A stretch of DNA of 26,146 nt, from the IMG/VR virus record IMGVR_UViG_3300032048_000013, positions 1-26,146 of that record; one strand, given 5' to 3'. This document shows positions 15,437-26,146 of this stretch, piece after piece; position 1 is the stretch's first letter, and each line of letters begins with the position of its first letter. The notes under the pieces were generated by a model. That model did not search any database, was not told the origin of the DNA, and saw nothing but the letters and a program-made list of their open reading frames with translations. The DNA is from a virus. A program made the translations under genes and the position numbers.

Positions 15437-15768
15437 TGGCAATGACTCATACGAAACTACATGCGCCTACACAGTTGGGAACGTCGCCTTCGACGTTGTA
15501 TACCGTGCCAGCGTCTACTACGACAATTGTGAAGCAGATCGCTTTATGTAATACCGCTGCTGCCAATAGGACTGTTTCTGTTTATCTAGTTCCTAGTGGC
15601 GGATCTGCTAGTGCTACTAATGCAGTTCTTTATGATGTAAGTGTTGATTCAAAGTCAACAACTTTTGTCAACTTGTCGGCTGTCATGGCGACTGGTGATT
15701 TTATTCAGGCTTCTGCGTCGGTCGTTAGTTCGGTTTCGATTCATTCATTTGGCATTCAGGAGGCGTAA
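15436..15768 (+). CDS. Small beta-sandwich fibre-associated protein
   Basis: This 110-residue protein has an almost entirely beta pattern with many Thr, Ser, Ala and Val. The segment STLYTVPASTTTIVKQIALC followed by NTAAANRTVSVYLVPSGG is a pattern I recognise from small accessory proteins in phage fibre clusters. The role of those proteins is usually unknown; they may decorate or cap a fibre. No signal peptide or membrane segment is seen. It overlaps both neighbours by a single base, so all three are probably translated in a coupled way. Confidence 0.6.
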   Translation: MAMTHTKLHAPTQLGTSPSTLYTVPASTTTIVKQIALCNTAAANRTVSVYLVPSGGSASATNAVLYDVSVDSKSTTFVNLSAVMATGDFIQASASVVSSVSIHSFGIQEA

Positions 15769-16427
15769 TGGCTGGGCGGCTTGTCCGAATAGGCGCTCCT
15801 GACGCTTTAGCGGATTTCTATGATTCGCCATCACACATCTTCGGGAGTGGAGAAGACGGCGTTGTTACCATCAGCGCGAACACAACTCTGACTGAAGATA
15901 AGTATTATCTTGATTTGACGGTTGATGCCACGAAAACTTTGAATACTGCGGGTTATCGGGTGTTTGTTCAACGCAATTTGTTCCTGTGGGGAACAATCGG
16001 GATGACAGCCGGACCTAGTTCTCAAGGATCCTTGGGGATCGGAACACAAAATACGAATGCAACCAATTCGTTGGGTGGTGCTTCTGCTTCTTACACGGTG
16101 ACTGCCCCTACCGCTGCTTTGGGTGGAACGAAGTGGTACAAGAATCCTTTGAATGTTGTTGATGGTTATTCGTTTGATCCCAGTAATGGCACTATCAATC
16201 TTCTCAAGGGTGGAGCAGGAGATGGAACAAATTATGGCGGTGGTGTGGTAATCGTTACTGCTCGTTATCTTTTCGGAGATGGAAACATTTCGGCAGCAGC
16301 ATCTGGAAATGCGGGTGGCGGTGTGATGTTCTTAATTTCCTCAGATAAAAGCCATTCGTACACGCTGAGTGCGGCTGGTTCAGGAACTGGATCAGCGGGG
16401 AATACTTATTTCTTAGAGGCTGACTGA
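15768..16427 (+). CDS. Glycine-rich fibre/adhesin protein, short paralogue
   Basis: This 219-residue protein begins with a beta domain (~25-85: FGSGEDGVVTISANTTLTED, then YYLDLTVDATKTLNTAGYRV) that matches the start of the next protein almost position by position. The C-terminal half is glycine-rich with a GGGVVIVTARYLFGDGNISA pattern, a style common in phage fibre tips and gp38-like adhesins, where poly-glycine II helices may form. A short loop (SGNA) sits where the neighbouring paralogue carries its 250-residue His-rich insert. It probably contributes to receptor binding. Both ends overlap their neighbours by 1 base. Confidence 0.65.
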   Translation: MAGRLVRIGAPDALADFYDSPSHIFGSGEDGVVTISANTTLTEDKYYLDLTVDATKTLNTAGYRVFVQRNLFLWGTIGMTAGPSSQGSLGIGTQNTNATNSLGGASASYTVTAPTAALGGTKWYKNPLNVVDGYSFDPSNGTINLLKGGAGDGTNYGGGVVIVTARYLFGDGNISAAASGNAGGGVMFLISSDKSHSYTLSAAGSGTGSAGNTYFLEAD

Positions 16428-18154
16428 TGGCTGATCCGAAATATGATCAGGGTGTCCGCCGAGAAAAGGACTTACTTCCTTATGTAGTTGAAATGCTGCC
16501 TGAGGACGAGTTTGGCGACCTTCAATTCGATGGGGAACTGGTTTTTGGAAGCGGCGAAGACGGTGATGTAACGGTCACCACGAATACCAATCTTTCTGGG
16601 GATATGTATTACAACAATCTCACTGTAAATAGTGGAGTGGTTCTAAATCCGAACGGTTGGAGAGTATTCGTAAAAAACACTTTGAACTTGACGGGCGACT
16701 TGGGGATCAAAGACACAGTTACAAGTGTCGGCACTGGTTCTTTGGAGGGAACCGTAGCCGTTGGGGAGAGTGTCACGGACGGTTTGGGCGGCGCTGGCGA
16801 ACCCGACGACTTTGAGTCTTCGGGGTACACTTTTAGCGGCTCTGGGGCCGTGAACACTTCGGTTGGTGTAGCAGCCAATGATTTTTATGATTTGCGTGAT
16901 GCTATTAACGCTTATAAGCAGCGTGGAACAGACTTTTTTCGTGCGAAGGGTGGTGCTGGTGGGGGTACCGGAGCGGATGGAGTTTCAGGAGCCGGGGTAG
17001 CCGGATCGTGGCCTCCGAGTGCGAACACAGTCGGCGTACCGGGGGGGAAGGGTTCTTCGGGGACTGGTGGCGCTGGGGGAACGGGTGGCCGTGGTGGTGC
17101 CGTAGTTATGGTTTCTGCCCGTCAGATCACTGGTTCAGGTGGTTTGTATTGCGAGGGTGGAACGTCAACTGATGGTGCTGCTGGAACAAGTGGAACGCCC
17201 GCTCCGACGTACACCGACCCGGCGTATAACCATGCTAATCCGGGTCATGGCAATCCGCCTGTCCAAAACCATCACCACACCAGTGGTCACGCGTCAGAAC
17301 AGAATCATCACGGGGTTCAAAACCATCACGGCACACCCCCGACGGCAGAACAGAATCATCACGGGGTTCAAAACCATCACGGCACACCCCCGACGGCAGT
17401 TCAAAACCATCACGGGGTTCAAAACCATCACGGCACAGATCCAACGCCGGGAACGGCCAGCCCGGACCCGACATCGAACCCTGATGCGTCATCGCATCAT
17501 CATGACAGCACATCCGGTACAAATCCTGATACGCCAGTGACGAATCCTCCTGTGCATGTCACGATTCCGGGTAGCGAAAATCCGGGTCACCATAATTTCC
17601 AACCGTTTCCGCATCACAACCCCGGAAACCACAACCCGACAAACCATATGGTGCAACCGGGCAGTCATCATCACAACCCCGGAAACCCGTACACGAACCA
17701 TCATGTGGTTACGAACCATCACGGAACGCCCCCCACGAATTATCCCCCAAATCCACCCGTTGCGAATCCTGATGCATCAGATCATCATAATGCAGCGGCA
17801 CAAAATCATCACACTAACCCTGATGCATCAGATCATCATCACGATTCGGAACAAAATCATCACACGAATCCTGATGCATCAGATCATCATCACGCCCCCA
17901 TGACAAACCATCACATCACACATCATCTCACTCCGGATACTCATGGAACGCCTCCCACTCCTCCGGGTACGGGCCATCAGGCGGCGATTGATTATCCCGG
18001 TGGGGCGGGTGGAACTGGCTATCAGGGGCAGCGAGGCGGTCGCGGTGGAGGCGGTGTTTTGATTGTGGTCACCAGAAATGCTGGTACACCGAGTTATTCT
18101 ATTAACACAGGAGTAAATGGCAGCAGCATTGCCCTTGACACTGCCAACATTTAA
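16427..18154 (+). CDS. Glycine-rich adhesin with a large histidine-rich repeat domain
   Basis: This 575-residue protein has an N-terminal domain (~35-95: FGSGEDGDVTVTTNTNLSGD) shared with the preceding gene. A glycine-rich region follows (~180-260, GGAGGTGGRGGAVVMVSARQ). Between H269 and H517 lie about 53 histidines in 249 residues, mostly as NHH, DHH or HHH. Part of this is arranged as two arrays of 17-residue repeats (EQNHHGVQNHHGTPPTA and NPDASDHHHDSEQNHHT). A second glycine-rich block (~525-550, GGAGGTGYQGQRGGRGGGG) and a beta end close the protein. The His clusters almost certainly bind transition metal ions. T4 gp37 shows that HxH sites in a fibre tip can hold iron, but the fold here is different and unknown. 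The enzyme cassette begins at the base after its stop codon. Confidence 0.75.
   Translation: MADPKYDQGVRREKDLLPYVVEMLPEDEFGDLQFDGELVFGSGEDGDVTVTTNTNLSGDMYYNNLTVNSGVVLNPNGWRVFVKNTLNLTGDLGIKDTVTSVGTGSLEGTVAVGESVTDGLGGAGEPDDFESSGYTFSGSGAVNTSVGVAANDFYDLRDAINAYKQRGTDFFRAKGGAGGGTGADGVSGAGVAGSWPPSANTVGVPGGKGSSGTGGAGGTGGRGGAVVMVSARQITGSGGLYCEGGTSTDGAAGTSGTPAPTYTDPAYNHANPGHGNPPVQNHHHTSGHASEQNHHGVQNHHGTPPTAEQNHHGVQNHHGTPPTAVQNHHGVQNHHGTDPTPGTASPDPTSNPDASSHHHDSTSGTNPDTPVTNPPVHVTIPGSENPGHHNFQPFPHHNPGNHNPTNHMVQPGSHHHNPGNPYTNHHVVTNHHGTPPTNYPPNPPVANPDASDHHNAAAQNHHTNPDASDHHHDSEQNHHTNPDASDHHHAPMTNHHITHHLTPDTHGTPPTPPGTGHQAAIDYPGGAGGTGYQGQRGGRGGGGVLIVVTRNAGTPSYSINTGVNGSSIALDTANI
17295..17447 (+). repeat. 51-base tandem repeat array 1 (three units) encoding His repeats
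   Basis: Units start at 17295, 17346 and 17397, a spacing of exactly 51 bases or 17 codons. Units 1 and 2 are nearly identical in DNA over their whole length. Unit 3 differs at its first codons and its end. The protein unit is EQNHHGVQNHHGTPPTA. The near-identity at silent positions indicates recent duplication. Confidence 0.9.
17765..17917 (+). repeat. 51-base tandem repeat array 2 (three units) encoding His repeats
   Basis: Units start at 17765, 17816 and 17867, again exactly 51 bases apart. The protein unit is NPDASDHHHDSEQNHHT; the third unit is degenerate in its second half. An older, diverged copy of the NPDAS-HHH part lies near 17478. The array has a different sequence from array 1 but the same 17-residue period. 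Confidence 0.88.
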
Positions 18155-18625
18155 ATGAAGACATATTATTACGTTCCTACAGACGAGGAAATAGAGCCGC
18201 ATGTTGCTGAGGCAACAATGTGGGGCATACCGATTGTTCATGGGATACCGGACAAAATCCTTAAAGAACATCCTGATATCACTCCGTCTAAGGCTGAGAT
18301 ATTCAAAGTTCCGGAAATAACCGGTGTAGCGCTGGCTGATAGTGAAATCAATGTGGGTAGCCATCAGGCCGTGATATGGACGAATGAGTTTTTAGATTTA
18401 CGAGGAAAGACTACTATTTCTGTTTTTAATGCTCGTAAGAAAGAAATGGCTCACGAAGATTTGATTCCGGTGTGGTGTGAAAAACATCGGGCACGTTGGG
18501 TGTTTCCTATTTTGAATATTGGAAAGTACGAAGTGTCGCTTCTACATGATGGAGAGGAACTAGCAACGGCGTTATTTTTTGCGTTCAAACGAAAAGCGGC
18601 ATTTCAGGACGGAAACAAAAAGTGA
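18155..18625 (+). CDS. Unknown protein, first gene of the oxygenase/halogenase cassette
   Basis: This 156-residue protein matches no family I recognise. The first ~45 residues (YYYVPTDEEIEPHVAEATMW and GIPDKILKEHPDITPSKAEI) look like a small alpha/beta or adaptor region. The rest is strand-rich with a possible immunoglobulin-like sandwich (GKTTISVFNARKKEMAHEDL, RWVFPILNIGKYEVSLLHDG). No signal peptide, membrane segment or metal motif is visible. The ATG follows the TAA of the His-rich adhesin gene with no gap, and its own TGA overlaps the ATG of the first oxygenase (TGATG). This ties it to both, so it could be a fibre-associated protein, an enzyme partner or a substrate carrier. Confidence 0.6.
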   Translation: MKTYYYVPTDEEIEPHVAEATMWGIPIVHGIPDKILKEHPDITPSKAEIFKVPEITGVALADSEINVGSHQAVIWTNEFLDLRGKTTISVFNARKKEMAHEDLIPVWCEKHRARWVFPILNIGKYEVSLLHDGEELATALFFAFKRKAAFQDGNKK

Positions 18626-19404
18626 TGGAAATACTTTTTCCCGGTATTGGATTGTGGCGTGATGCATTTGAGATTTCAGATGGGTATGCCGATGTTCTTT
18701 GGAAAAATCGGTATGAGATAGAACGCGGGGAATCTTGGGTTGATGATCGGGAAGGACATCGTCACAACTATGAAATAACTGGCCCGATTCGTATCAGGAA
18801 CTTTCCTGAAGATGGATTGGCGGACAGCGAAGATGATAAATATGTTTTCATGCTTCAGGGTGTGATGATGAAATGCTTGTTGGAGTACATGAAGGAGTAC
18901 CCGACCAGTTTTCAGGATATCCAATGGCAGGAGGCACATAGGCTTCTCTATTATTTTCCCGGTGCCAACATGGGTACTCATTCCGACAACACGCCCGGAG
19001 AGCATTTTACCGGTCCTAATCGAACAGGGAAATCGTATAGAGATCTTGTTGCTCCTCAAAGAATTCTATGTGCCCTCCAATTCATGAGTGATTGGGTACC
19101 GGATGACGAACCGGAAGGAGATAGTTTTACCGGAGGGGAAGTTTCGTGGCCGTATGTGGGAGCGACACACGAACCTCAAAAGGGGGATGTTCTCATCTAT
19201 CCGGCAAATTTCATTTATTCTCATAATGTCAGCCCCGTTTTGGCAGGGCACCGAATAGTAAATTTGACTTGCTTCTGTCAGGGGGATATTCCTGATTTTT
19301 CTTCGCATTATGGAATTGAACACCCAATGAATATTTTCCCCGGAAGTAATATGTATTTAGATCTTAATCACGATGAAATTAAGTGGGTGAAACATGCCAG
19401 TTGA
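18625..19404 (+). CDS. 2-oxoglutarate/Fe(II)-dependent oxygenase (prolyl hydroxylase-like), first copy
   Basis: This 259-residue enzyme carries the full iron and co-substrate site of the family. H119-S-D121 in GTHSDN and H200 in YSHNVSP bind Fe(II), and R210, ten residues after the distal His, should bind 2-oxoglutarate. The supporting strand FTGGEVSWP and the PQKGDVLIYPANF turn are typical of prolyl 4-hydroxylase-like enzymes. It should hydroxylate a substrate with O2 and release CO2 and succinate; the substrate cannot be read from the sequence. A ~20-residue stretch after the HxD (HFTGPNRTGKSYRD) is longer than in the compact second copy. ATG 18625 (TGATG overlap) is preferred over GTG 18622. 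It overlaps the second oxygenase gene by 11 bases. Confidence 0.85.
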   Translation: MEILFPGIGLWRDAFEISDGYADVLWKNRYEIERGESWVDDREGHRHNYEITGPIRIRNFPEDGLADSEDDKYVFMLQGVMMKCLLEYMKEYPTSFQDIQWQEAHRLLYYFPGANMGTHSDNTPGEHFTGPNRTGKSYRDLVAPQRILCALQFMSDWVPDDEPEGDSFTGGEVSWPYVGATHEPQKGDVLIYPANFIYSHNVSPVLAGHRIVNLTCFCQGDIPDFSSHYGIEHPMNIFPGSNMYLDLNHDEIKWVKHAS

Positions 19405-19981
19405 AAATCCCGCACCGGGTGTACTGATCCATGAAGGGTGGTACTCCGATGCTGACAAATTACTAGATGAAACACTAAAGGCCGCAGAGTTGGAGTATTC
19501 GGTTACTGCATGGAAGCGATCCATAACAGGCACTCCCGGTAACCATCAGCAAACTGATTACAGAAGCAGCGTGGAAAGCAGCATCAGTGAGGTTTGGGGA
19601 TACAACGATAAAGATTTCATACCCCTAGCAGAAGAACTCAAAAAGTTTAGTAGGGAACTCAATGAAAAAGTAAACAATTTCAGATCTGTTTATGATCTTC
19701 ATCTAAGAAAGGATGAAGGTTTTACGGTCATCCGCTATCAAAACAAAGCGGAATACCACTTCCACCATGACCATGCGGAACAAAATCAGAGAGCCTTAAG
19801 TATGGTGTTTTTCCTTAACGACAACTTCGATGGCGGCGAATTGGAATTTCCCTACTTCGATATAAAGATCACCCCATCGGCAGGAACGTTAGTCTTGTTT
19901 CCTTCCAATTTCCCTTTCGGGCACATCGCCCACCCGGTAGAGGGTGGAACTAAATATTCGCTGGTTACTTGGTATTCGTGA
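19394..19981 (+). CDS. 2-oxoglutarate/Fe(II)-dependent oxygenase (prolyl hydroxylase-like), second copy
   Basis: This compact 195-residue enzyme is of the 2OG-FeII_Oxy_3 type. Iron ligands are H124 and D126 in FHHDHAE and H177 in FGHIAHPV. K187, ten residues further on, should bind 2-oxoglutarate. The core strand MVFFLNDNFDGGELEFPYFD and the GTLVLFPSNFPFGHIAHPVE segment are textbook for prolyl 4-hydroxylase alpha-like domains. A basic N-terminal half (KRSITGTPGNHQQTDYRSS) resembles the family's substrate-side region. It differs strongly from the first copy, so the pair did not arise by a recent duplication and may act on different substrates or positions. The start overlaps the first oxygenase, and the stop lies 2 bases before the halogenase ATG. 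Confidence 0.9.
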   Translation: MPVENPAPGVLIHEGWYSDADKLLDETLKAAELEYSVTAWKRSITGTPGNHQQTDYRSSVESSISEVWGYNDKDFIPLAEELKKFSRELNEKVNNFRSVYDLHLRKDEGFTVIRYQNKAEYHFHHDHAEQNQRALSMVFFLNDNFDGGELEFPYFDIKITPSAGTLVLFPSNFPFGHIAHPVEGGTKYSLVTWYS

Positions 19982-19983
19982 AC

Positions 19984-21462
19984 ATGATTAAAAAAATTGG
20001 AATTGTCGGAGGAGGGAATGCAGGACTAATCAGCGCGCTCATTCTACGTTCTGCTTTCCCAGAACATGAGATAGTGGTTGTCAAGTCTGACATGATCGGA
20101 ACCATAGGGGTGGGGGAAGGCTCCACGGAACATTGGTTGGGATTTATGAATTTCTGTGGGATAGAACCCGCAGAAATGATTGTTGCAGCATTGGCTACCC
20201 ATAAAAAGGGTATTCGTTTTGAAGGATGGACCGATCACACTCCTGACTATTTTCATGTGACTTCTGGATTACCTGATTTTGTTCCGCGGATGTTTGGTTT
20301 CAACGGAGCGTATGCTGGATTTTTGTCTAAAGAATGGTTGTTGACTGAACACACCTGTCATAAAGGATTGTTGGAAAATAAGGTTCCAGCGGATAATCCT
20401 CATAGGAGTGTCAATCAGTTTCATTTTGATACTGAAGAGTTGAATGATTTTCTTAGGATGAAGGTAAGTAATCGAAATATCAAAATCATAGATGGAGAGG
20501 TTCAGAGGGTTGTTGTAAAAGACGATTGGATTGTCAGTGTGGAACTGGATGATCCAACGGCGTCAGCGGATAGGACGATCAGGGCAGACTTTTGGATAGA
20601 TGCCTCTGGTTTCAACAAGGTTTTGATTTCACATCTCTCTAAACAAACGTGGAACTCGTTCGGTGAGTATCTGTTAACGGATTCCGCGATTGCTTTCCGA
20701 ACACCTTCGGATGAAAGTGGAGAGTTGAGGCCATACACCCGTGCGAGGGCATTGGATAGTGGTTGGGCGTGGGAAATCCCGACTCAGGCAGAACGAGGCA
20801 ATGGATATGTTTACTCTTCTTCATTTTGCACAGAAGAAGAAGCGGTTGCCGAAATGGAAGAATTGTTGGATGTCCAAATATCGGATCACCGACATTTCCA
20901 ATTCGATCCGGGGCATTTGGAAGAGCCGTGGGTTGGCAATTGTGTAGCAGTCGGTTTGGCCGGATCTTTTGTAGAACCATTAGAAGCGACTTCCATTGGG
21001 TCTACGATTACTCAGGCAAAGTCTCTAATCGGCTATCTTGCATCTTTTCAAAAGGGCAATGAATGGATTCCGAAAGAATACAACCGACAGTTCAATGGGA
21101 TGATGGCCAATATTCTTGACATGATTCGATTGCACTACGTCAGTGATCGAACCGATACTCCGTTTTGGTCTGCCTTACAGGATATGCCTATTCCGGAAAG
21201 TTTGGAACGACTATTGGGCCTTTGGTCGGAACGTCCGCCACAACAGATGGACTTCAGTCATGGAGAATTGGCGATGTTTGGTTTACCGCATTTTTATCAT
21301 GTGGGACAAGGTCAAGGTGTTTTGAACCCTGATTCAGCCTTTAGGGCGATACAGGCGTTTGTTTGGGAAGATTCGGTTGAGGATGCTATATGGAAAATAC
21401 GAGAAAACCAATCCGCTCACCCAATCATGGATCATCATGAGGCGCTTGAAAACCTTCAGTAA
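19984..21462 (+). CDS. Flavin-dependent tryptophan-halogenase-like enzyme
   Basis: This 492-residue enzyme shows all the key sites of the family. The FAD-binding GxGxxG is G9-G11-G14 in IGIVGGGNAG, and IGVGEGSTEHW follows. K74 in THKKGIRF matches the lysine that carries hypohalous acid (K79 in PrnA). W261-A-W263-E-I-P is the WxWxIP motif that separates halogenases from monooxygenases. E334 in EPLEATSI corresponds to the catalytic glutamate of PrnA. It needs reduced flavin from a reductase, which is not in this window. Substrate may be free tryptophan, another indole or phenol, or a peptide. Cyanophage Syn10 VirX1 is a characterised viral member that prefers iodide. ATG 19984 is preferred; GTG 19978, overlapping the upstream stop, is also possible. 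It overlaps the next gene by 26 bases. Confidence 0.9.
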   Translation: MIKKIGIVGGGNAGLISALILRSAFPEHEIVVVKSDMIGTIGVGEGSTEHWLGFMNFCGIEPAEMIVAALATHKKGIRFEGWTDHTPDYFHVTSGLPDFVPRMFGFNGAYAGFLSKEWLLTEHTCHKGLLENKVPADNPHRSVNQFHFDTEELNDFLRMKVSNRNIKIIDGEVQRVVVKDDWIVSVELDDPTASADRTIRADFWIDASGFNKVLISHLSKQTWNSFGEYLLTDSAIAFRTPSDESGELRPYTRARALDSGWAWEIPTQAERGNGYVYSSSFCTEEEAVAEMEELLDVQISDHRHFQFDPGHLEEPWVGNCVAVGLAGSFVEPLEATSIGSTITQAKSLIGYLASFQKGNEWIPKEYNRQFNGMMANILDMIRLHYVSDRTDTPFWSALQDMPIPESLERLLGLWSERPPQQMDFSHGELAMFGLPHFYHVGQGQGVLNPDSAFRAIQAFVWEDSVEDAIWKIRENQSAHPIMDHHEALENLQ

Positions 21463-22183
21463 AATCCGATCGTATTTGGATTGGCCGAAGGTCAAAAAGG
21501 GAGAGATCCTGATCATCCCTTCTGATAATCGACTGATTGAAAACCCTCCCAAATTGAGCAAGGATGGTTGGCCGGAATGGTACAGGAGTCCAAAGATAGC
21601 GAAACCCGGCACAATAGTTAGTTGTAAGGGTATTCAGGATTATCTATCTATCGGTTTGACGGTTCCCTTGTGGTGTGACATCGAAGTGTTTCAAATGGGC
21701 ATGGACGATGTTCGTGGAAGAACTAGTGATCGTGCTTTCGATGTTGATCATTTTGGTGGGAGTATGGCGGAGGGGTGTCCCATCAGTCGTGGGAGGGCTT
21801 TTGATGAGGCGGGGTTTCCGAAGGTTGTTTCACCGTTTCTGTATAAGACAGCACCGGGATACTCCATGCTGGTTTTGCCCATAGCGTATGAGCCGGATGA
21901 GCGTTATCAGGTTTTACCAGCGATAGTTCATACCGACTTTTATCACAACATTAATGTTGTTTTACGGGTGATGACTAAGGAAACCTTTGTAATTAAAGCC
22001 GGAACACCTATTTATCAGTTGATTCCATTTAAGAGAAGCGACACTATAGGCAAGGTTATTCTTGGTGATGCAGGGATGTATGAAACTGGGAAGTTTCGCG
22101 GTCTTTCTTATGGGGGAATAGGAAAGTTCTCTATGAAGGGTCTTTACCGCAAGCATCAAAGGGATGCTGACGCGGATCTTTGA
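21437..22183 (+). CDS. Uncharacterised protein of a family seen in marine phages (possibly DUF6065)
   Basis: This 248-residue protein carries a pattern I have met in marine viral and some bacterial genes: WPEWYRSPK, then GIQDYLSIGLTVPLWCDIEV, VVSPFLYKTAPGYSMLVLPI, VLPAIVHTDFYHN, and near the end IKAGTPIYQLIPFKR. I believe this is the group catalogued as DUF6065, but I could not check. Its biochemical role is unknown. Such genes occur beside 2OG oxygenase and halogenase genes, so it may bind the shared substrate or be a further enzyme. ATG 21437 is chosen because the longer frame from 21359 would overlap the halogenase by 104 bases and adds a basic, non-conserved stretch. It contains scattered His/Asp pairs but no clear HxD...H iron site. 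Confidence 0.6.
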   Translation: MRRLKTFSKIRSYLDWPKVKKGEILIIPSDNRLIENPPKLSKDGWPEWYRSPKIAKPGTIVSCKGIQDYLSIGLTVPLWCDIEVFQMGMDDVRGRTSDRAFDVDHFGGSMAEGCPISRGRAFDEAGFPKVVSPFLYKTAPGYSMLVLPIAYEPDERYQVLPAIVHTDFYHNINVVLRVMTKETFVIKAGTPIYQLIPFKRSDTIGKVILGDAGMYETGKFRGLSYGGIGKFSMKGLYRKHQRDADADL

Positions 22184-22205: not shown

Positions 22206-22469
22206 ATGGAAGACGATAACTCTAACGATCCCGGCAAACAGATTGTTGATGTCGAAGTTGCCGACAAGTTTGGTGAGGATCTTCCTGTTGTTGTAAAGGA
22301 TTATGTCGTGATCGCAGAGGTCATGACTGACGAGGGGAACACACTTTTGGTATCTACCAGTCCCCAAAGCACCCCGTGGGCTATCTACGGGTTGTTGCAG
22401 TACGGTGAACGATTTTTTGATGATCAGTTTTACAACCCCAACTTTAACCCAGAGATGAACGATGGATGA
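22206..22469 (+). CDS. Small unknown acidic protein between cassette and second fibre block
   Basis: This 87-residue acidic protein has a core DYVVIAEVMTDEGNTLLVST followed by PWAIYGLLQYGERFF. The style recalls small genes of unknown function in tail regions of several phage groups, but I cannot name a family. No signal or membrane segment is seen. It begins 22 bases after the preceding stop, without a clear ribosome binding site, and is followed within a few bases by fibre-type genes. It could be a fibre chaperone or a regulator. It is probably cytoplasmic. Confidence 0.6.
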   Translation: MEDDNSNDPGKQIVDVEVADKFGEDLPVVVKDYVVIAEVMTDEGNTLLVSTSPQSTPWAIYGLLQYGERFFDDQFYNPNFNPEMNDG

Positions 22470-25425: not shown

Positions 25426-26146
25426 ATGGCAGCAATCATTCAATTTCGTAGAGACACCGCAGCCAACTGGACTTCCAATAACCCCACGATGGCTGTCGGG
25501 GAAATTGGGTACGAAACCGATAATCAGAATTACAAGATTGGCGATGGGGTTACCGCATGGACTTCTCTTGGTTACGGCGGTTTGGGGGACATCCATAAGA
25601 CCCTGATCGACGCCAAGGGTGATCTCGTTGTCGGCCTAGCAGACAACTCCGCTGGCCGACTTGCTGTAGGGACCAACGGGCAGATGCTCGTTGCCGACAG
25701 CGACGCTGCTGGCGGTATTTCGTGGGCAGCCAATGACACCATTGTCAACTGGCATGAAGCCGTGAAGTTGGCGTCTGCTGCTGCCATCGCCGCTGCTACC
25801 TCCACTTACGACAATGGGACTTCTGGGGTAGGAGCAACCCTGACGCACACTCCTGCTTCTACGCCATCTGGCTATGCGCGTCTTCAGATTGATGGCACAA
25901 ATGTTACTACTGGTGACAGGATTCTTATTCAAGATCAGGTCGATGCTGCTCATAACGGTATTTATGAGGTAACCGCTCAGGGTGTTGCCGCAACTTCTGC
26001 ATGGGTGCTGACCCGTGGTGATGACTTTGACGGAACACCGACTGGACAAATTAAACAGGGTGAAGCCGTTTATGCTTTGTCAGGTTCCAACAACAGCGGT
26101 CAGGGCTTTACGGTTACTTCGACCAGTGATCCGCATACGGTTGGAA
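25426..26146 (+). CDS. Fibre/receptor-binding protein with Mtd-like N-terminal domain, cut by window end
   Basis: The frame opens at ATG 25426 (AGGGA upstream) and runs off the right edge after 240 codons. The first ~50 residues, IIQFRRDTAANWTSNNPTMA and GEIGYETDNQNYKIGDGVTA, are the major tropism determinant (Mtd) N-terminal type domain, used to attach receptor-binding proteins to tails. Module A follows (LIDAKGDLVVGLADNSAGRL, near 25603), almost the same as in the fibre gene at 14129. The shared beta module comes next (RILIQDQVDAAHNGIYEV, then WVLTRGDDFD). The receptor-binding end lies outside the window, so specificity and full length are unknown. Confidence 0.8.
   Translation, partial: MAAIIQFRRDTAANWTSNNPTMAVGEIGYETDNQNYKIGDGVTAWTSLGYGGLGDIHKTLIDAKGDLVVGLADNSAGRLAVGTNGQMLVADSDAAGGISWAANDTIVNWHEAVKLASAAAIAAATSTYDNGTSGVGATLTHTPASTPSGYARLQIDGTNVTTGDRILIQDQVDAAHNGIYEVTAQGVAATSAWVLTRGDDFDGTPTGQIKQGEAVYALSGSNNSGQGFTVTSTSDPHTVG
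25765..26125 (+). repeat. Shared fibre module, copy 3
   Basis: The region encodes the third copy of the module found at 10391-10775 and 23840-24185, with the marks TSTYDNGTSGVGATLTHT, RILIQDQ, NGIYEV, WVLTR and GFTVTS. It is closer to the J-like copy (YDNGT-GVGA-LT) than to copy 2. Limits are approximate. Confidence 0.7.

Follow-up and report, generated by a model that had tools for sequence, protein, structure and literature searches.

A phage halogenase and oxygenase cassette tied to a glycine-rich tail adhesin as a candidate module for adhesin modification

The window analysed here is the whole of the IMG/VR virus record IMGVR_UViG_3300032048_000013, a linear record of 26 kb (26,146 nucleotides) from an uncultivated phage, carrying a tail module. 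On its + strand, a short and a large glycine-rich adhesin are followed by five genes, A to E (18155-22183), which include those for two oxygenases of the type dependent on 2-oxoglutarate (2OG) and Fe(II) and for a predicted flavin-dependent halogenase. Judged from sequence comparison, this cassette is probably a dedicated and exchangeable module for the post-translational modification of the adhesin encoded just upstream. Linkage, exchange and covariation point to that adhesin as the likely substrate of the enzymes. From its composition, histidine is a plausible candidate for the halogenated residue, an assignment made with distinctly less confidence.

IMG/VR was scanned with profiles of D and E, which returned well over a hundred contigs, and profiles made for this analysis served to work out the gene order anew. 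Halogenases of the window type were collapsed at 80% identity, and the counts given with the following features refer to the 44 clusters with sufficient flanking sequence (protein lengths in amino acids, aa; immunoglobulin abbreviated as Ig).

15768..16427, + strand: short glycine-rich adhesin-like protein, 219 aa, His 0.9%; kept in 43 of 44 clusters
16427..18154, + strand: large glycine-rich adhesin, the proposed substrate, 575 aa; directly 5' of the cassette in 43 of 44 clusters
17198..17992, + strand: His/Pro/Asn-rich insert of the large adhesin, residues 258-522
18155..18625, + strand: gene A, alpha/beta and Ig/filamin-like protein, 156 aa; detected in 36 of 44 clusters
18622..19404, + strand: gene B, 2OG-Fe(II) oxygenase 1, optional, GTG start; in 6 of 44 clusters
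19394..19981, + strand: gene C, 2OG-Fe(II) oxygenase 2, core, PF13640 match with E 1e-16; in 44 of 44 clusters
19984..21462, + strand: gene D, predicted flavin-dependent halogenase, PF04820 match with E 2e-97; ATG start, TTG at 19969 possible
21437..22183, + strand: gene E, phrog_7084 protein; directly 3' of D in 43 of 44 clusters
22206..22469, + strand: conserved downstream gene, 87 aa, probably phage backbone

Linkage and joint exchange with the adhesins

As defined by these counts, the core of the cassette is the order adhesin pair-A-C-D-E, with B as an addition: the pair lies upstream of the halogenase in all clusters but one, and oxygenase C and E accompany it in every case. The five genes are thus not the fixed unit that a preliminary description of this DNA had proposed. 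Since the gene order is conserved across dozens of clusters, a chance arrangement is excluded, and the varied size (from less than 30 kb to 150 kb) and differing backbones of the contigs indicate that the cassette moves between phages. The 87 aa downstream gene is found in close relatives that share the backbone, and is missing from distant cassette loci. A location independent of structural genes, as expected of auxiliary metabolic genes, is not what was found. The check set beforehand, namely whether the cassette neighbours fibre genes, came out in favour of the link, as the adhesin stands alongside in 43/44 clusters and a second halogenase clade is linked likewise. Across 141 halogenase clusters, a glycine-rich neighbour is present in 84 of the 90 with E, against 15 of the 51 without it (Fisher p 1e-15). 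In the contigs L383 and L385, four to five halogenase genes alternate with oxygenase-sized genes, and no glycine-rich adhesin lies close by.

Within the window, the open reading frames bear out the five genes on the + strand, every neighbouring pair of which touches or overlaps. The adhesin stop codon (TAA, 18152-18154) directly abuts the ATG of gene A at 18155, leaving the zero gap already pointed out in the preliminary description. Its remark that no separate promoter is visible also holds, as fewer sigma-70-like sites were returned by the promoter scan than by shuffled sequences (6 vs 14.9). The zero gap and the lack of a promoter-like excess suggest that adhesin and cassette form one operon. 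No RNA family and no transfer RNA were found in a scan of the window. At 25426-26145 lies the first part of a protein that continues in L003, where it is 1344 aa long; its Major tropism determinant N-terminal domain (PF18454) suggests a further receptor-binding protein.

The second clade is that of VirX1, the halogenase of cyanophage Syn10 (PDB 6QGM), to which gp42 of syn9 is near-identical. VirX1-type halogenases are deeply separate from those of the window type, since halogenase clades that are adhesin-free lie between the two, and they have a glycine-rich neighbour in 44 of 48 clusters. Their block runs from the fibre through two to three glycine-rich adhesins, a protein of ~165 aa, the halogenase or halogenases and E to the oxygenases. 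The adhesins are of a family different from that of the window adhesin, being ~283 aa long and glycine-rich, with conserved His loops. Because their His content is lower (2-5%) and Trp is present, the assignment of the target residue is less firm than that of the substrate. The syn9 adhesin matches 20 isolate records, and the seven inspected (S-CREM1, S-WAM1, P-TIM40, P-RSM6, Sf-FR1, S-RIM44, and S-SZBM1) all carry a halogenase a few genes downstream, together with several oxygenases, JmjC-type among them. At L505:20501-24319, the RefSeq labels 'DNA endonuclease V' and 'hypothetical protein' conceal 2OG-Fe(II) oxygenases (PF13640, PF08007), in what looks like a propagated misannotation. In the virion proteome of S-SZBM1, the long tail fibre protein was not detected, though adhesin-like genes are present (PMC9146016); an escape of modified peptides from standard search and a low abundance are equally possible explanations.

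Joint exchange is seen between two strains of S-RIM44, Np_42_0711 and Np_05_0604, which share 96.6-97.8% identity over a region running from the neck genes past the terminase. They differ upstream of the neck genes, where Np_42_0711 carries E and three glycine-rich adhesins together with two halogenases and a series of oxygenase genes, and Np_05_0604 a protein that is not glycine-rich (Gly 12%, His 1%) and one PF13759 oxygenase. Fibre, adhesins and enzymes were exchanged together as a block and, because the fibre gene differs too, the unit of exchange is the whole tip module.

In cellular genomes, the cassette was found on only three contigs of metagenome-assembled genomes (MAGs), whose origin is uncertain, and for that reason no host is assigned. 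Relatives of E (63% and 49%) are carried by L506 and L507, two contigs from a single gammaproteobacterial MAG, which are possibly phage contigs binned with their host.

Enzyme type and adhesin composition

All 53 histidines of the large adhesin lie in residues 258-522, an insert with no Trp, no Lys, and four Tyr. The alignment shows that the short adhesin shares its N-terminal domain with the large one. No sequence match to any solved structure was found for these adhesins, which are glycine-rich and fibre-linked. For a comparison across phages, adhesins were gathered by the N-terminal domain of the window adhesin, and not by the cassette, among the best 80 of 298 and the best 80 of 337 matches, and were pooled with the adhesins of cassette loci. 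A halogenase was scored as present if it lay within 9 kb of the adhesin.

The median His content of the adhesin is 7.4% (range 2.1-11.6) in the 58 clusters with a halogenase, 2.2% (0-2.9) in the 21 with E and no halogenase, and 0% in the one with neither, and it separates halogenase from halogenase-free clusters with an area under the curve of 0.99. Tyrosine shows the reverse (3.1% with a halogenase vs 6.9% without) and tryptophan is equal, so that both were rejected as the common halogenation target. The aromatic or proline residues named in the preliminary description give way here to histidine, to which the composition points. The short adhesin is His-poor with and without a halogenase. A conserved WPPNA-like motif of the adhesins was also set aside as the target, because adhesins without a halogenase have it too.

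The 21 halogenase-free clusters fall into two sets, 13 of them with Tyr/Asn-rich repeats (NNYSYGYSYPGNN, for example) and a methyltransferase of the FkbM type, and the other eight with a PF11397 N-acetylglucosamine (GlcNAc) transferase and repeats nearly free of His. Neither enzyme occurs in any halogenase cluster, and the three are mutually exclusive behind one scaffold. In L241:11257-17396 and its relatives, the FkbM methyltransferase is accompanied by two oxygenases, two copies of E, and a 274 aa protein, with repeats NNYSYGYSYPGNN, and the cassette ends in a small ferredoxin-like protein. In L244:9328-12573 and its relatives, the PF11397 enzyme, two copies of E and an oxygenase go with the same adhesin scaffold, and the adhesins are almost without His and carry NAPTYTYTAG-type repeats.

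The published reading of such enzymes is that of auxiliary metabolism or small-molecule tailoring, in which their substrate would be free tryptophan or some other metabolite of the host and they would only ride in the hypervariable fibre region. In the literature, phage prnA is read as antibiotic protection, and the oxygenases as DNA repair or 2OG/nitrogen signalling (PMC2984593, PMC9964418, PMC9146016, PMC3037559). In vitro, VirX1 accepts many small aromatics for halogenation, and a review describes its small synthetic substrates and its large open active site (PMC8407142). Several phage halogenase clades without fibre linkage also fit this reading. It is nevertheless unlikely in view of the strict gene order and adhesin coupling, the convergent linkage in two halogenase clades, the mutually exclusive enzyme types that track adhesin composition, and the strain-level loss of enzymes along with adhesins.

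A target other than the His-rich loop, be it another virion or tip component (the short adhesin, the fibre shaft or a baseplate protein) or a molecule on the surface of the host, would agree with the co-conservation of the short adhesin in 43/44 clusters and with the exchange of the S-RIM44 fibre gene along with the block. This too is improbable, as composition follows the enzyme set only in the insert of the large adhesin, and the short one is His-poor regardless. A third view takes the loop as a metal-binding bait (the 'Ferrojan horse'), with enzymes that are unrelated or only tune metal binding. Iron binding by HxH motifs is described or predicted for T4 gp37 and marine tail fibres (PMC11705849), and the median number of such motifs in window-family adhesins is 7.5. 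As a complete explanation it is quite improbable, since it accounts neither for the halogenase and the strict linkage nor for the swap to a GlcNAc or methyl transferase with His-poor repeats; a metal-binding role of the loop is, however, compatible with adhesin modification and not exclusive of it.

Modification of the adhesin by the cassette has to be weighed against several observations. Other phage halogenase clades (P-SSM2, Syn1, and HTVC008M types) are without adhesin linkage. The halogenase label changes only ~2 times on the adhesin tree, so that the composition p-values overstate the independent evidence from these few events, and independent support comes down to the VirX1 clade and the S-RIM44 strain swap. 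In that swap the fibre was co-exchanged, which ties the enzymes to the tip module and not to the adhesin alone. Two adhesins with a halogenase have just 2-3% His, and some VirX1-type adhesins combine 2-3% His with ~2% Trp. In S-SRM01 (L025:8010-10591), a halogenase without an oxygenase has the fibre gene on one side and, on the other, an adhesin free of His and rich in Trp and Cys, with the loop CNWWGNCWWEASQWTQYRTC. The case as a whole is one made from sequence comparison. The tailoring interpretation of the preliminary description is partly supported: the linkage to the adhesin stands, in the window-type clusters and in the second clade, and the modification itself is a prediction.

Proteins of the cassette

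Each enzyme keeps its catalytic residues, as had been described, and these are invariant among relatives. The iron triad HxD...H is formed by H120/D122/H201 in B, with an Arg/Lys, and by H124/D126/H177 in C, with Lys187. Both proteins thus hold the iron triad and the basic 2OG-binding residue that define membership of PF13640, B being assigned through a phrog_61 match (E 1e-14) and a PF13640 match (E 2e-4) below the Pfam gathering cutoff. Gene D has GxGxxG, a Lys aligned with K75 of PyrH, WxWxIP, and the PLE glutamate; by these motifs and its profile match it belongs to the PF04820 flavin-dependent halogenases, the activity being predicted.

Gene E does not bear the 'DUF6065-like' label given to it at first, as the window protein has no match to DUF6065 (PF19541) and only 2 of 50 relatives do (best E 0.004). 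A partial dUTPase match is more frequent among the relatives; this family (PF00692) was rejected as well, the window match having E 0.014 over ~40 residues, below the cutoff. The structural model, with a predicted local distance difference test score (pLDDT) of 85, resembles the dUTPase barrel only in part (Foldseek template modelling score 0.3-0.4 of the query). In BLAST against isolates, E of the window gave no match and one relative gave three weak matches; the E profile detects the E of syn9, which was missed by BLAST with the window protein.

The protein of gene A, for which no Pfam or PHROG match was found, consists of an N-terminal alpha/beta part and a C-terminal Ig/filamin-like beta sandwich (model pLDDT 95, Foldseek), and is a possible substrate-recognition or scaffold protein. 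This fold bears on the idea of a peptide natural product, in which a small cassette gene would encode a precursor tailored by the oxygenases and the halogenase. Oxygenase and halogenase sets are typical of peptide tailoring, and many cassette loci have an extra gene of ~75 aa. The idea is very improbable, given that gene A folds confidently as an Ig-like protein, that the 75 aa protein, which is not in the window, looks helical and has no core-like segment, and that the cassette is without a transporter or a protease.

Proposed mechanism and known systems

In the proposed mechanism, the cassette would be expressed in one operon with the adhesin. One or both 2OG oxygenases would hydroxylate side chains of the long low-complexity loop of the adhesin, and halogenase D, dependent on reduced flavin adenine dinucleotide (FADH2), would halogenate loop side chains, most likely His imidazoles, before or during virion assembly. 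The reduced flavin would be supplied by a reductase that the cassette does not encode, presumably one of the host, and A (Ig-like) and E (dUTPase-like barrel) would probably be accessory or substrate-handling proteins. The halogenated and hydroxylated loops may then form a tip of altered chemistry, whether in its stability, its hydrophobicity, the binding of metals or the contacts with receptors. In related phages the adhesin scaffold and the E/oxygenase core are retained, a GlcNAc transferase or FkbM methyltransferase takes the place of the halogenase, and the repeat composition is altered as well.

Beyond the window, it can be proposed, tentatively, that phages encode protein-histidine halogenases and exchangeable decoration modules keyed to the residues of adhesin loops, and that the natural substrate of VirX1 is the neighbouring adhesin. 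If so, hydroxyl and halogen groups are placed on the receptor-binding tips of some aquatic phages, which would diversify the tip beyond the 20 amino acids, add a layer to host recognition, and make such phages a source of enzymes that halogenate proteins. For 15 years, catalogues have listed phage halogenases and 2OG oxygenases under metabolism or repair, with no known substrate, and tailoring of the adhesin differs from the readings published so far, antibiotic protection and DNA repair. Two halogenase clades, one of them that of VirX1, whose structure is solved, now adjoin a concrete candidate protein substrate, testable on existing isolates. In the literature searched, which covered few subscription papers, no proposal of adhesin modification was found for a halogenase with a tail fibre or adhesin, and no description of protein-histidine halogenation by a flavin enzyme. 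There, VirX1 is treated with small synthetic substrates only and no adhesin link, the original VirX1 report lying outside that search.

Among known systems, VirX1 is like gene D in being a phage PF04820 halogenase in a block of glycine-rich adhesins, halogenase, E-like gene and oxygenases (the block seen in syn9), and unlike it in its separate halogenase clade and different adhesin family. The bacterial tryptophan halogenases PyrH, PrnA, and RebH share the fold family and catalytic motifs of gene D; however, they act on free Trp and belong to biosynthetic clusters, whereas gene D lies in a tail operon next to a candidate loop without Trp. Adhesins of the T-even gp38 type are, like those of the cassette, glycine-rich tip-like proteins adjoining tail fibre genes, and the cyanophage glycine-rich adhesins match phrog_863, 'tail fiber assembly'; the cassette adhesins differ in their very long His-rich (or Tyr/Asn-rich) loops and in the modification cassette. 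The oxygenases belong to PF13640 and PF13759, and those of cyanophages include JmjC_2 (PF08007), families with protein-residue hydroxylases, although, unlike the JmjC-type and prolyl hydroxylases, they have no known protein substrate and are encoded in a virion module. The nearest working analogue is the phage-encoded glycosylation of virion proteins, in which a phage enzyme decorates a virion protein, and PF11397 GlcNAc transferases do occur in the sister cassettes. The cassette departs from it in that halogenation and hydroxylation would take the place of a sugar and in that a change of enzyme type goes along with a change of the adhesin repeat; an enzyme that truly halogenates histidine on a virion would stand further from known systems than this analogue.

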